This document shows positions 54,040 to 58,636 of a stretch of 64,000 nt of DNA, in pieces. Each line of letters starts with the position of its first letter. The stretch's first letter is position 1. Location: the NCBI GenBank assembly GCA_013178295.1, contig JABLWW010000004.1, positions 248,001 through 312,000 on the forward strand, written 5' to 3'. Position numbers and translations under genes: made by a program. The notes under the pieces were generated by a model. The model was given only the letters and a program-made list of their open reading frames with translations, was not told the DNA's origin and did not search any database. Origin of the DNA: Anaerolineae bacterium. Lineage in GTDB: Bacteria > Chloroflexota > Anaerolineae > Anaerolineales > Anaerolineaceae.

Positions 54040-54681
54040 ATGGATCAACTCTCGCACATCGCGGATAAAATACACCTGTCTTTTGAAACCATCACCCGTG
54101 TACGCGACCAGGCATTGATTCAATCGCGCCAGGTGGTGGTGCACGCTGCCCATGCCATCCGTGCCATCCACCGTGAAGATCACGCCCAGGCACATAAAGA
54201 ACTGGAGCAGGCGCAGGCGTTAACCAAAGAACTGCGCCTGGTGTTAAGTGCCTATCCGTCTCTCTACTACGCAGGCTATACCCAGGACGCTATCAAAGAG
54301 TACGTGGAAGCCAGTATTACCTGCGCCTTGATCGAAAACCGACCTCTACCCTCGCCAGAGGAGCTCGAAGTCGAGTATGCCACTTACCTCAACGGTCTGG
54401 CAGAATCAAGCGGGGAGTTGCGCCGCCGCAGCCTGGATGTGATGCGCCAGAACCGCCTGGATGAGGCACAGCGGCTGCTGAACTGCATGGACGACATCTA
54501 CGCCGTCCTGGTAACCATGGACTATCCAGACGCAATCACCAACGGGCTGCGCCGCCAAACCGACCTGGTGCGTGGTATCCTGGAACGAACCCGCGGCGAT
54601 CTGACCATCAGTCAGCGCGAAGAACAACTCAAACAGGCGCTGGAAGCCTTTATGCTCCGTCTGGAACAAAAGCAGCGCTGA
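54040..54681 (+). CDS. Translin-family nucleic-acid-binding protein
   Basis: 213 residues, all-helical. It shows the translin signatures RPLPSPEELEVEYATYLNGL and YPDAITNGLRRQTDLVRG then LERTRGDLT. Translin binds single-stranded RNA/DNA as an octamer and, with TRAX, is a ribonuclease; bacterial members are rarely studied. No clear Shine-Dalgarno. It sits between ssb and a split Cas4-like nuclease, all on one strand with short gaps. Confidence 0.85.
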   Translation: MDQLSHIADKIHLSFETITRVRDQALIQSRQVVVHAAHAIRAIHREDHAQAHKELEQAQALTKELRLVLSAYPSLYYAGYTQDAIKEYVEASITCALIENRPLPSPEELEVEYATYLNGLAESSGELRRRSLDVMRQNRLDEAQRLLNCMDDIYAVLVTMDYPDAITNGLRRQTDLVRGILERTRGDLTISQREEQLKQALEAFMLRLEQKQR

Positions 54682-54682
54682 C

Positions 54683-54922
54683 ATGCGCGTCATCCGTGCC
54701 TCCGAATTGGGTTCTTTTTTGTTTTGCGCCCGCGCCTGGTGGTATCAACAGCAAGGGATGCCCCCGCAAAATCAGCATCAGTTGACGGCAGGGGTGCAGT
54801 TCCATCGCCAGCACGGTCGCCGGGTGCTGGCTGCCAGGCTGCTGACCGCGCTGGGGTGGACGCTATTGCTTATCGCCCTGATTTTGGTAACCGTCAGTCT
54901 GACCCTTCGATGGTTACAATAA
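54683..54922 (+). CDS. N-terminal half of split Cas4-like nuclease, membrane-anchored
   Basis: 79 residues. Residues 1-45 match the N-terminus of Cas4/RecB-type nucleases: ELGSFLFCARAWWY with one Cys (C15) where Cas4 has its first Fe-S ligand, and GVQFHRQHG with the motif-I His (H41). Residues ~53-75 are a single membrane span preceded by Arg residues, so the N-terminal part faces the cytoplasm. The start is 1 nt after the translin stop. The catalytic half is encoded by the next gene. Confidence 0.7.
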   Translation: MRVIRASELGSFLFCARAWWYQQQGMPPQNQHQLTAGVQFHRQHGRRVLAARLLTALGWTLLLIALILVTVSLTLRWLQ

Positions 54923-54943
54923 CCCTGCTGATGACAATTTCCC

Positions 54944-55465
54944 ATGACCATCTTGTTCCTAATACTGGCTGTCTTTCTCATCCTCCTGGCGCTGTTTCTA
55001 CTCCGTAAGGGATCACGCCAGCGTCAGGCTGCCGGATTACCCGCCGGACAAGTAGTGTATGAAGATACCAGCCAATGGTGCAAAAATGAAACACCATTAT
55101 ATGACTCCATGCTGCGCCTAACCGGTAAACCCGACTATCTGGTTAATGTAGGAGGCATCCCGATACCCGTCGAGGTCAAAAGCGGTCGAGCACCCGCCAC
55201 GCCCTATCCAGGGCACATTTATCAGCTTGCTGCCTATTGCCTGCTGATTGCCCGAACCACTGGAAAACGCCCCCCTTATGGCATCATCCATTACTCCAAT
55301 CGTACCTTTTCCATTGATTTCACTGATGCCATGGAAGAGGAATTGCTCAACCTTCTTGCCGAAATGCGGGCTTGCGAAAAACGCACCAACGTTGACCGCT
55401 CTCATAAAGACGCCGCTCGCTGCGCCCACTGTGGCTACCGCTCTGCCTGCGAGCAGCGGTTGTAA
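54944..55465 (+). CDS. Catalytic half of split Cas4-like PD-(D/E)XK nuclease, membrane-anchored
   Basis: 173 residues. One N-terminal membrane span (~3-20) followed by RKGSRQR (cytoplasmic side), then a PD-(D/E)XK domain: GKPDYLV (D64), VEVKSG (E77, K79) and QLAAY (Q94, Y98). The C-terminus has C160-x2-C163-x5-C169, the three C-terminal Fe-S ligands of Cas4. The fourth ligand (C15) and motif-I His are on the preceding protein, so the two would need to assemble into one nuclease. No cas genes or CRISPR arrays are nearby. Confidence 0.78.
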   Translation: MTILFLILAVFLILLALFLLRKGSRQRQAAGLPAGQVVYEDTSQWCKNETPLYDSMLRLTGKPDYLVNVGGIPIPVEVKSGRAPATPYPGHIYQLAAYCLLIARTTGKRPPYGIIHYSNRTFSIDFTDAMEEELLNLLAEMRACEKRTNVDRSHKDAARCAHCGYRSACEQRL

Positions 55466-55491: not shown

Positions 55492-56376
55492 ATGCAACAA
55501 CGACCTTCCCCCCCGCGTCGATTTGCCATCGGTGTTCACCCTGAATTGGCAACAGCCAATACGGTCGCCAGGCAAATTAAGCATGCACTCCTGGAACAGG
55601 GCGCCGCAGAGGTATTCCTGGCACCCCTCAACAACCAGGAATTACGCCAGCTCGTTTCCGGCGGAAAATTTGATGCACTGATTGCCGTCGGAGGAGACGG
55701 CACCATGCTGCGTGCCGGGCATCTCTGTGCGCCACAGGGCATCCCCATCATGGGTATCAATGTGGGGCACTTTGGGTTTCTCATCGAAGTGCAGCACAAT
55801 CAATGGCAAAGCAAACTTTCCGATTTGTTGCAAGGCAAATACCGCGTCGAAAACCGCATGATGTTGCGCGCCGAGCACTGGCATCAAAACCAAAAGATGG
55901 GGAGCTGGGATGTGCTCAATGAAGTCATCGCATGCCGTGGAAATTTTGTGCGCCCGGTGCGTTTGCGCGCAGAGGTGGACGGCTTTTTGCTTGCCAATTA
56001 TGTCGCCGATGGTTTGATCATCGCCACGCCAACCGGTTCAACCGCTTACGCCCTGGCAGCTGGTGGTCCGATTATGCCCCCCGACCTGCGCAACATTCTT
56101 ATCATCCCGGTTGCCCCGCATCTATCTATTGACCGCGCCGTGATTCTCCCTGAAGGGGCACAGGTCAGTGTGCATGTGCGCACCAACCACGAAGCGGTGA
56201 TGAGCGTTGACGGGCACCAGCCCATCATCATGCAAGATGGAGACGAAATCCGCGCCGCCACCGGACCAAACGTGGTTTCCTTCATCCGCTTTGAAGACCC
56301 GGGCTATTTTTACTGCAACTTGACAAAGTACATGGAGAAAAACCCCGTTACAGGAGACCTGGATGGAAAATCCTGA
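55492..56376 (+). CDS. nadK: NAD kinase
   Basis: 294 residues with GGDGTMLRAGHL and the second core TPTGSTAYALAAGGP. Makes NADP from NAD. A TATAAT box (55479-55484) ends 7 nt before the ATG with no Shine-Dalgarno, indicating a leaderless mRNA. Its 3' end overlaps the next gene by 14 nt. Confidence 0.95.
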   Translation: MQQRPSPPRRFAIGVHPELATANTVARQIKHALLEQGAAEVFLAPLNNQELRQLVSGGKFDALIAVGGDGTMLRAGHLCAPQGIPIMGINVGHFGFLIEVQHNQWQSKLSDLLQGKYRVENRMMLRAEHWHQNQKMGSWDVLNEVIACRGNFVRPVRLRAEVDGFLLANYVADGLIIATPTGSTAYALAAGGPIMPPDLRNILIIPVAPHLSIDRAVILPEGAQVSVHVRTNHEAVMSVDGHQPIIMQDGDEIRAATGPNVVSFIRFEDPGYFYCNLTKYMEKNPVTGDLDGKS

Positions 56377-56896
56377 CCTTCCCGCCCCCCCCGAAAAGGT
56401 GTACTGTGTCAACCACCCCCAGCGCGAAACCCTGTTGCGCTGTAACCGCTGCGAGCAGCCCATCTGCATCCAGTGTGCTGTCCTGACCCCTACAGGGTAT
56501 CGCTGTAAAAACTGTGTGCGCAGTCAGCAAAAAAGTTTTGAAACCGCCCAGTGGATAGATTACCCAATGGCAATCATCATCTCAGGGTTGATTGCCTTTG
56601 GTGGCAGCATTGTAGCCTCTCTGCCAGTCATTGGTTTTCTGGCGCTCTTTATTGGTCCACTGGTGGGGATGCTGATCTCCGAGGCAGTACGGCGCGTGGT
56701 GGGCAAGCGTCGTTCCAAACTGCTTTTTCAACTGGCAACCGCTGCGGCAGTAGTGGGCTGCCTGCCCATGCTCCTGCCCTCATTGCTTGCTCTGCTGATG
56801 GGTGGATTTTCGCTGGCAATCCTCTGGCAGGGTCTGTACACTTTTCTGGTTGCTAGCACGGTGTATTACCGCCTCAGCGGAATCCGGGTACGATAA
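56363..56896 (+). CDS. B-box-like zinc finger membrane protein
   Basis: 177 residues. The N-terminal ~50 hold a B-box-like zinc finger (CVNHPQR...CNRCEQPICIQC...CKNC), followed by four hydrophobic segments. Function unknown; such proteins are common beside recN or rhomboid genes in Chloroflexota and Actinobacteria. AGGAG precedes the ATG. recN starts 9 nt downstream. Confidence 0.82.
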   Translation: MENPDLPAPPEKVYCVNHPQRETLLRCNRCEQPICIQCAVLTPTGYRCKNCVRSQQKSFETAQWIDYPMAIIISGLIAFGGSIVASLPVIGFLALFIGPLVGMLISEAVRRVVGKRRSKLLFQLATAAAVVGCLPMLLPSLLALLMGGFSLAILWQGLYTFLVASTVYYRLSGIRVR

Positions 56897-56905
56897 GCGC
56901 AAACC

Positions 56906-58636
56906 ATGTTAACCGAACTGAGAATTGACAATTTTGCCATTATAGAGCACCTGGTTCTGGAGTTTAAGCCCGGGCTGACTACCTTTACCGGCGAAACCGG
57001 GGCTGGCAAATCCATCATCCTGGATGCCATCACAGCCGTCCTGGGTGGCAAAATAGACCAGACCGCGCTGCGCAGCGGGACAGAACGGGCACAAATAGAA
57101 GCGGTTTTCGAGATACCCGCTCAGAACCGCGCCGAAATTCATGAACTGCTCAAAAAAGAAGACCTCCTCGACGACCCCGACCTGGTCACACTGGGGCGTG
57201 AATTACGCCGTGAGGGGCGCAGCACCTGCCGCATTAATGGGCGCAGCGTCAATTCTAACCTGTTGCGCGAAATCGGCAGCTATCTGGTGGATATTCATGG
57301 GCAGTCCGAACACCTTTCGCTGCTACATGTACGCCAGCATCTTGGGCTTCTCGACCGCTATGCTGGCAGCGAGAAGCCGCTGGCCGGTTATCAACAAACC
57401 TATCAGCAGCTGCAAATCCTGCGTCGCGAACTGAGTGCTCTGCGTCAAACTGAACAGGACGCGCTGCGTCTAACAGACCTTTACAACTTCCAGATACAGG
57501 AAATTGAAGCCGCTCATCTGCGGGCAGGCGAGGAAACCTCCCTGCGCCAGGAACGCGACCGTCTGGCAAATGCCGAGAACCTGGCAGCACTGGCGCAAAA
57601 AAGTATCCTGCTCCTGGAAGAAGGAAGCCCTGAAACGCCTTCCCTCTCTGATATGCTTGGCGAGGTCTCTCAGGCGCTGGCAGCTTTGAGCAAGATAGAC
57701 CATACCCAGTCCCACCTGCGGGAGCATATCGAAGCCATCGAAGAGCAAATCGGTGATATTGCCCACGCGTTGCGCAGCTATCTGGAGCAAATCGAGTACA
57801 ATCCGCGCCGTCTGGAACAGGTGGAAGAACGCCTGGCATTAATACACACACTGACACGCAAATATGGTGGCAGCATCGAATCTGTCTTAGCTTACGCAGC
57901 AGAAGCACGCCAGAAGCTCGACAACATCACCCACGCCAGCGAACGCATCACTGAAATGGAAAAGCAGGAAACCCAACTGCTTACCGCCATCGCTCAACAG
58001 GGCGCTGAGCTTTCGCAGCTGCGCCGCCAGGCGGCTGAAAAACTCTCTGAGGCAGTTGAAAAAGAGCTGGCTGACCTGAATATGCGCGGGGCGCGCTTTA
58101 TGGTGGATATACAGTACCGCGATGACACGCAAGGCGTTTGGATAGGAGACCGCTGCGTCAACTTTGACAGCAGTGGGCTTGATCAGGTGGAATTCCTGAT
58201 TGCACCCAACCCCGGCGAGGGCTTTAAACCACTGGCAAAAACAGCCTCTGGCGGCGAAACCTCGCGCCTGATGCTGGCTTTAAAAAATGTCCTCACCCGC
58301 GCCGATTGCATCCCTACCTTGATCTTTGACGAGATTGACCAGGGCATCGGCGGGCGTGTGGGAATGGTCGTTGGGCAAAAGCTCTGGCAACTTGCCAGGC
58401 AGCATCAGGTACTATGTGTTACACATCTGCCGCAACTGGCTGCCTTTGGTGATCAACACCTGCGCGTTCAAAAACAGGTGATTGACGGGAGAACAACTAC
58501 CCAGGTCGAAGTGCTTGGCGAAGAGAGCCGCCTAAACGAGCTGGCACAGATGCTTGGCGGCTTGAGCGAAGCAAACCGCAACGCCGCACACGAAACGTTG
58601 CAAACAGCTCGCGCACAACGCGACAGCCTGTTATAA
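56906..58636 (+). CDS. recN: DNA repair protein RecN
   Basis: 576 residues, SMC-like: Walker A GETGAGKSIIL near the N-terminus, a coiled-coil middle, signature SGGETSRLMLAL and Walker B TLIFDEIDQGIGG. RecN loads at double-strand breaks. Confidence 0.96.
   Translation: MLTELRIDNFAIIEHLVLEFKPGLTTFTGETGAGKSIILDAITAVLGGKIDQTALRSGTERAQIEAVFEIPAQNRAEIHELLKKEDLLDDPDLVTLGRELRREGRSTCRINGRSVNSNLLREIGSYLVDIHGQSEHLSLLHVRQHLGLLDRYAGSEKPLAGYQQTYQQLQILRRELSALRQTEQDALRLTDLYNFQIQEIEAAHLRAGEETSLRQERDRLANAENLAALAQKSILLLEEGSPETPSLSDMLGEVSQALAALSKIDHTQSHLREHIEAIEEQIGDIAHALRSYLEQIEYNPRRLEQVEERLALIHTLTRKYGGSIESVLAYAAEARQKLDNITHASERITEMEKQETQLLTAIAQQGAELSQLRRQAAEKLSEAVEKELADLNMRGARFMVDIQYRDDTQGVWIGDRCVNFDSSGLDQVEFLIAPNPGEGFKPLAKTASGGETSRLMLALKNVLTRADCIPTLIFDEIDQGIGGRVGMVVGQKLWQLARQHQVLCVTHLPQLAAFGDQHLRVQKQVIDGRTTTQVEVLGEESRLNELAQMLGGLSEANRNAAHETLQTARAQRDSLL

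Follow-up and report, generated by a model that had tools for sequence, protein, structure and literature searches.

A Cas4-type nuclease probably divided between two membrane-anchored proteins in Chloroflexota

In the 64,000-nucleotide stretch of an Anaerolineae genome analysed here (the window; contig JABLWW010000004.1, positions 248,001 to 312,000), two consecutive small genes very probably encode a two-subunit, membrane-anchored nuclease of the Cas4 type. According to our proposal, the two genes would specify the two subunits of one RecB/AddB-like, iron-staple enzyme, to which the product of the first gene (N-half) would contribute the N-terminal cysteine and the motif-I histidine, and the product of the second (C-half) the Asp, Glu-x-Lys and Gln-x3-Tyr motifs together with the three remaining cysteines. 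The chains would meet in the cytoplasm, where the four-cysteine cluster and a single metal active site would each be built from both, and the two helices, one per subunit and jointly resembling a helical hairpin, would hold the enzyme at the inner face of the cytoplasmic membrane. We infer a physical heterodimer and the presence of a cluster and, by homology to Cas4, a likely exonuclease activity on single-stranded DNA. Since the pair is not a single soluble polypeptide of about 170-220 aa, we file it as a variant of the Cas4 family and not as an ordinary Cas4.

An earlier note, made from the DNA letters, had described two consecutive small genes that each carry half of a Cas4, and both the open reading frames (ORFs) and complementary profile matches confirm this description (Table 1). 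The two ORFs lie on the + strand in the identical frame and are separated by 21 bases; the junction reads TAA ccc tgc TGA TGA caa ttt ccc ATG and thus holds three in-frame stops. The gene order in the window is ssb, translin, N-half, C-half, NAD kinase, a small, uncharacterised B-box/membrane protein gene (56363-56896) and recN, with a single base between the end of translin and the start of the N-half. The neighbourhood that the note had reported, with ssb and translin upstream, recN downstream and CRISPR absent, therefore holds for the window. A CRISPR-associated Cas4 acting in CRISPR adaptation was rejected, as the window contains no CRISPR-like repeats and the flanking genes (ssb, translin, NAD kinase and recN) are not cas genes.

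Table 1. Positions of the two genes, their motifs and the adjacent translin-family gene in the window
Feature	Position	Strand	Remarks
Translin-family gene	54040..54681	+	1 base upstream of N-half; PF01997 and NF011160 matches
N-half gene, 79 aa	54683..54922	+	Cas4 N-terminal piece with membrane helix at C-terminus
N-half motifs	54683..54922	+	I4-x-x-S7, C15, R17-A-W19, G37-x3-H41, H44-G45
C15 codon	54725..54727	+	N-terminal Cys of the four-cysteine set; aligned with Cas4 N-terminal Cys
H41 codon	54803..54805	+	motif-I histidine; in family f70 lost along with C-half catalytic residues
N-half membrane helix, residues 53-71	54839..54895	+	Kyte-Doolittle 2.53; in 76/76 relatives
N-half stop codon and intergenic stretch	54920..54943	+	two further in-frame stops
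C-half gene, 173 aa	54944..55465	+	membrane helix, then RecB/Cas4 nuclease core and three C-terminal cysteines
C-half membrane helix, residues 2-20	54947..55003	+	Kyte-Doolittle 3.33; in 80/80 relatives
D64 to E77-x-K79 codons	55133..55180	+	catalytic motifs II and III
Q94-x3-Y98 codons	55223..55237	+	QhXXY motif
C160-x2-C163-x5-C169 codons	55421..55450	+	other three cysteines; 135/135 scorable

The C-half of the window scored 39.1 bits against PF01930 (Cas_Cas4; cut-off 22.7) and 65.1 bits against TIGR00372 (cas4), so close to the cut-off of 65 that annotation pipelines would give the CRISPR-associated Cas4 label in some genomes only. Its matches to both models begin only at about model position 30. 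For the N-half of the window, a Pfam search gave no match and TIGR00372 stayed below its cut-off (E 0.05); PADLOC Cas4 models matched it at positions 2-47 of 168 (E = 6e-4), and TIGR00372 reached E = 4e-5 to 1e-4 on the N-halves of relatives. Over 101 Chloroflexota genomes, TIGR00372 is matched by the C-halves at positions 55-179 and by the N-halves of the same genomes at 2-47, and one matching N-half (genome G192) lies on another contig than its C-half. When compared by hhalign with single-chain Cas4s of the same phylum, the N-half alignment gave E = 4.9e-8 over 47 columns, in which C15 is paired with the conserved Cas4 N-terminal cysteine and H41 with the motif-I histidine column, and the C-half gave E = 8.7e-23. 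When PDB sequences were searched with this profile, chance matches came up together with one weak collinear match to the Cas4 of 8d3l (E = 0.72). Three profile tests (TIGR00372, PADLOC and hhalign) concur in identifying the N-half, by its sequence, as the N-terminal part of a Cas4.

Conservation was counted over 134 distinct N-halves and 137 distinct C-halves, with scorable sequences as denominators. Within the N-half, C15, W19, G37 and H41 were each found in 133/133 sequences. The C-half retains D64 and K79 in 137/137, E77 in 136/137, Q94 in 136/136, Y98 in 135/136 and the three cysteines in all 135 that could be scored; the sole exception at E77 is a Leu, as in a fused protein (L143). All of the residues listed in the earlier note (C15 and H41; D64, E77-x-K79, Q94-x3-Y98 and C160-x2-C163-x5-C169) are thus present, and their conservation is far above what chance would give. 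RecB motifs I (His), II (Asp) and III (Glu-x-Lys) and the QhXXY motif are complete, spread across two chains, and there are four conserved cysteines, one in the N-half (C15) and three in the C-half.

A hydrophobic helix, defined as a Kyte-Doolittle value >= 1.6 over 19 residues, was found at the C-terminus of every N-half (76/76) and at the N-terminus of every C-half (80/80) among the relatives. Lys and Arg cluster on the soluble-domain side of the helix (median 4 for the N-half and 3 for the C-half), with almost none on the other side, which by the positive-inside rule places the soluble parts of both halves in the cytoplasm. Natural fusions in which the two helices form a hairpin (see below) imply that the two soluble parts share one side of the membrane. 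The cytoplasmic location given in the note is supported.

Both halves are present in 136 of the 199 class genomes, a single half in 3 and neither half in 60. The three one-sided genomes comprise one with the C-half only, located 291 bases from a contig end, and two with the N-half only, which are 82-83% complete. The earlier note had named beforehand, as an observation that would speak against it, relatives lacking one of the two genes; such relatives amount to only 3/139 and come from incomplete genomes or a contig edge. Genome G044 (82% complete) has three N-half matches (contigs C152, C153 and C207) and no C-half was found in it; one of the three matches is a short fragment at a contig edge. 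The conserved adjacency that the note had suggested looking for applies to 93 pairs, which lie <=10 kb apart, and fails for 43 pairs not within 10 kb. Two of these unlinked pairs are on one contig but distant, and 41 are on separate contigs, some of them possibly through contig-edge effects; in a genome assembled as one contig (G010), the halves are 2.8 Mb apart. The N-half precedes the C-half in 77/80 named loci, of which none (0/77) has a single ORF, and in some relatives the frames of the halves differ or other genes intervene. The pair recurs, mostly as a single copy, in many further families of Chloroflexota. We conclude that the split is ancient and spans the phylum. At many Anaerolineales loci (L069, L075, L082, L084, L100, L113, L120 and L131) a gene for a HEAT-repeat-like protein of ~210 aa sits between the halves, and at two others (L028 and L031) an L,D-transpeptidase gene is immediately upstream of the C-half.

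Joint loss of catalytic residues was seen in family f70, which consists of large genomes (up to 13.7 Mb) and in which the N-half motif reads RRGAF-x2-G-x3-H. Of its 27 pairs, 16 have both motif sets intact, 10 have both broken, 1 is broken in the C-half only and 0 in the N-half only; some motif states were taken from the printed sequence where the pattern of our script had missed them. Broken pairs have D64 changed to A/S/T or E77 to A/V/T and have lost the N-half G or H. The association is strong (Fisher 1.3e-6), but shared ancestry inflates this value and the count of separate events, about four joint losses on the tree, is the better figure. The one discordant pair of this family (G482) has E77 changed to G with the N-half intact, and sits on a very short branch beside intact sisters. 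The same joint loss occurred in G206 and G266, which belong to another family, and a member of a third family (G273) is discordant in that the H is lost and Asp/Glu/Lys are kept. In all these broken pairs (f70, G206, G266 and G273) the N-half Cys and the C-x2-C-x5-C are retained, suggesting that the catalytically broken versions keep a non-nuclease role. Broken versions with their cysteines kept include L287, L289, L290-L294, L296 and L297 of f70 and L248 and L260 of family f62. In addition, f70 contains three one-ORF fusions, of 353 aa (G218), 379 aa (G477) and 330 aa (G450), which are laid out as N-half, helix, short loop, helix and C-half and are all catalytically broken. A fusion of 219 aa in G107 has no membrane helices, and a Leu replaces its catalytic Glu.

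We modelled the C-half alone and a read-through of the window sequence, in which TAA was read as Q and TGA as W so that an artificial 8-residue linker, serving solely for modelling, joins the halves. The read-through model, built with 111 homologous rows aligned, reached a pLDDT of 87 and a pTM of 0.73, and the C-half alone a pLDDT of 83 with a confident nuclease core. With a C-half alignment depth similar in both models, the pLDDT of C-half residues 141-173 rose from 74/72/67/53 in the C-half alone to 90-97 with the N-half, and this gain in the cysteine-bearing segment is where it would be expected if the cluster were shared between the chains. In Foldseek, Cas4, AdnA and MGME1 were nearest to both models, and Dna2 was also among the nearest to the fused one. 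The product of TM-score and query length against AdnA increased from about 92 residues for the C-half to 127 with the N-half and the hairpin, a gain that is compatible with the N-half being canonically placed in the model but does not prove it, as the alignments covering both halves have a large rmsd (7-15 A).

Collectively, homology, co-occurrence, co-degeneration, fusions and modelling support the split and the Fe-S site shared between the chains, both put forward in the earlier note, and also a shared active site, with the cluster itself as a prediction. A very unlikely alternative, in our estimate, is that the N-half is an independent, Cas4-derived cysteine membrane protein and that the C-half acts alone as a truncated nuclease. 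This would agree with the 43 class genomes in which the pair is >10 kb apart or unlinked, with the 13 genomes in which the N-half is linked to translin while the C-half is unlinked, and with the confident nuclease core of the C-half alone; the discordant pairs G273 and G482, each the reverse of the other, also count against a shared enzyme. However, co-occurrence is near-perfect although linkage has been lost, the catalytic motifs of both halves disappear jointly, natural fusions occur, the residues that are invariant in the N-half are exactly the Cas4 ligand residues, and the cysteine tail of the C-half is of low confidence without the N-half. The shared frame of the two ORFs with stops between them could also be read as an ordinary solo-Cas4 broken by a frameshift, a nonsense mutation or a sequencing error. 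We give hardly any weight to this reading and rejected the sequencing-error or pseudogene origin, given the three in-frame stops, the 0/77 named two-half loci with one ORF, the relatives with different frames, intervening genes or unlinked halves, and the strong conservation of both halves.

In crystallised Cas4 the cluster is bound by one N-terminal and three C-terminal cysteines, which in Pcal_0546 are Cys64, Cys200, Cys203 and Cys209 (PMC4176176), and C160/C163/C169 of the C-half are spaced as the last three of them. The inactive H80A variant of SSO1391 provides a precedent for the catalytic histidine, and Pcal_0546 can lose its cluster without losing nuclease activity (PMC4176176), so that the cluster may be dispensable here as well. 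Cas4 proteins have been described as ssDNA exonucleases with an iron staple (PMC3466216). With Cas4 (DUF83, PF01930, TIGR00372; SSO0001, Pcal_0546 and the type I-C Cas4 of 8d3l), solo-Cas4 included, the pair has the RecB and QhXXY motifs, one N-terminal Cys plus C-x2-C-x5-C and the fold in common. In contrast to these single soluble chains, however, it is divided after the motif-I histidine and before the first core strand, bears a membrane helix on each part, and lacks cas1/cas2 or CRISPR neighbours. AddB, AdnA, Dna2 and Exo V likewise use a four-cysteine staple to join the N- and C-terminal ends of a RecB-type nuclease domain, but these ends lie within one long chain with a helicase, whereas the pair consists of two small membrane proteins and no helicase. 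The Argonaute-associated Cas4 family protein ACE1 (9iab, 9iac) and MGME1 share the Cas4-like nuclease fold (Foldseek) and, unlike the pair, are single chains with other partners.

Solo-Cas4 genes were noted in many Chloroflexi in 2017 (PMC5704561), and the C-half may be that gene. Neither in that paper nor in the literature searched, which was largely without subscription papers, did we find the split, the membrane anchor or the N-half partner. The statement of the earlier note that it knew of no such split accordingly stands for the literature searched. That literature describes Cas4s as single soluble chains, and the pair would be, as far as we found, the first membrane-tethered member of the family.

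Translin is present in 180/199 class genomes. Where both genes could be located, it lies <300 bp from the N-half in 66/117 genomes and <=3 kb in 75/117, including 13 genomes with an unlinked C-half; by these counts, the linkage of the N-half to translin is roughly as strong as its linkage to the C-half. Of the upstream neighbours pointed out in the earlier note, the link to translin is hence real and recurrent, while that to ssb is less general (about 10/80 named loci). Reading the neighbours of unlinked halves by eye, we saw no obvious recurrent partner besides translin next to the N-half. The translin gene of the window matches PF01997 marginally (26.0 bits, cut-off 25.9) and NF011160 with E 2.6e-75, yet below the cut-off of that model. 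The NCBIfam models that it matches best (NF011156-NF011161 and PRK14562) carry the title 'haloacid dehalogenase superfamily protein', apparently a misnomer. Published descriptions of eukaryotic translin present it as a protein that binds both DNA and RNA (PMC3834833, PMC9246224); we found no connection between translin and a Cas4-type nuclease in the literature, and gene order is the basis of the one drawn here. The translin gene is likely to be in the same operon as the N-half and is a possible functional partner, and the link suggests that translin and the nuclease act together on single-stranded DNA or RNA. With translin near-universal in the class, its role there is broader than the nuclease.

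As to the cellular role, our best guess from the homology to Cas4 is a single-strand exonuclease tethered to the membrane, and we tentatively favour, from gene order, a housekeeping nuclease that would trim single-stranded nucleic acid at the membrane together with the upstream translin. The pair is low in copy number, widespread in the phylum, flanked by housekeeping genes and absent from the viral contigs searched, all of which favours housekeeping over defence. It is possible, though we hold this with more reserve, that translin and both subunits work as one machine bound to the membrane. Translin would then supply a heterodimeric nuclease with ssDNA or ssRNA, or act as a gate for them, and the cluster would be assembled only when the two subunits meet. 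If so, the meeting of the subunits, and hence nuclease activity, could be controlled in the membrane, and the nuclease-dead f70 versions would serve some non-catalytic purpose through the cysteine scaffold that they keep.

A general DNA-repair or replication nuclease resembling AddB, Dna2 or Exo V and working with RecN and SSB instead of translin, with the anchor localising it to membrane-associated DNA, seems rather unlikely. The order C-half, NAD kinase, B-box/membrane protein gene and recN (window 55492-58636) is kept in most named loci, which places recN two genes downstream, ssb precedes in some, and the fold neighbours AdnA, Dna2 and MGME1 would suit such a function; however, genomes with unlinked halves have the pair without a nearby recN. 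NAD kinase-recN is a common gene order in bacteria, so the adjacency of recN may be incidental. We regard as improbable the role that the earlier note had offered as an example, DNA uptake or phage defence by cutting single-stranded DNA entering through the membrane. A Cas4-type single-strand nuclease tethered to the membrane would suit DNA entry, the DruK defence nuclease model (PADLOC) also scores on the C-half, and defence or repair roles have been proposed for solo-Cas4s (PMC5704561). The pair is, however, phylum-wide, mostly single-copy and placed among housekeeping neighbours (translin, NAD kinase, RecN). ComEC occurs in 178/199 class genomes, about equally commonly with and without the pair, and was not found in some pair-bearing genomes; as it does not discriminate, DNA uptake is unsupported. 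Neither half is encoded on any of the viral contigs searched, and on this ground we rejected a phage or mobile-element gene. PADLOC gave no match for three neighbours, the halves matching Cas4/RecB-type models only, and a defence island was rejected on these three neighbours.

Should the two-subunit enzyme be real, it would be a natural split nuclease whose active site, and probably Fe-S cluster, are common to two chains. The solo-Cas4 of Chloroflexi would have to be read anew, with annotation naming the C-half Cas4 and missing its 79-aa partner. The job of a membrane-bound RecB-type nuclease, the cluster as an assembly switch and the purpose of bacterial translin would become testable, and the nuclease-dead forms with all cysteines would amount to a natural separation-of-function experiment. 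The source genome also encodes an ordinary single-chain Cas4 on a different contig (L188, G000:C9:163597-164166).
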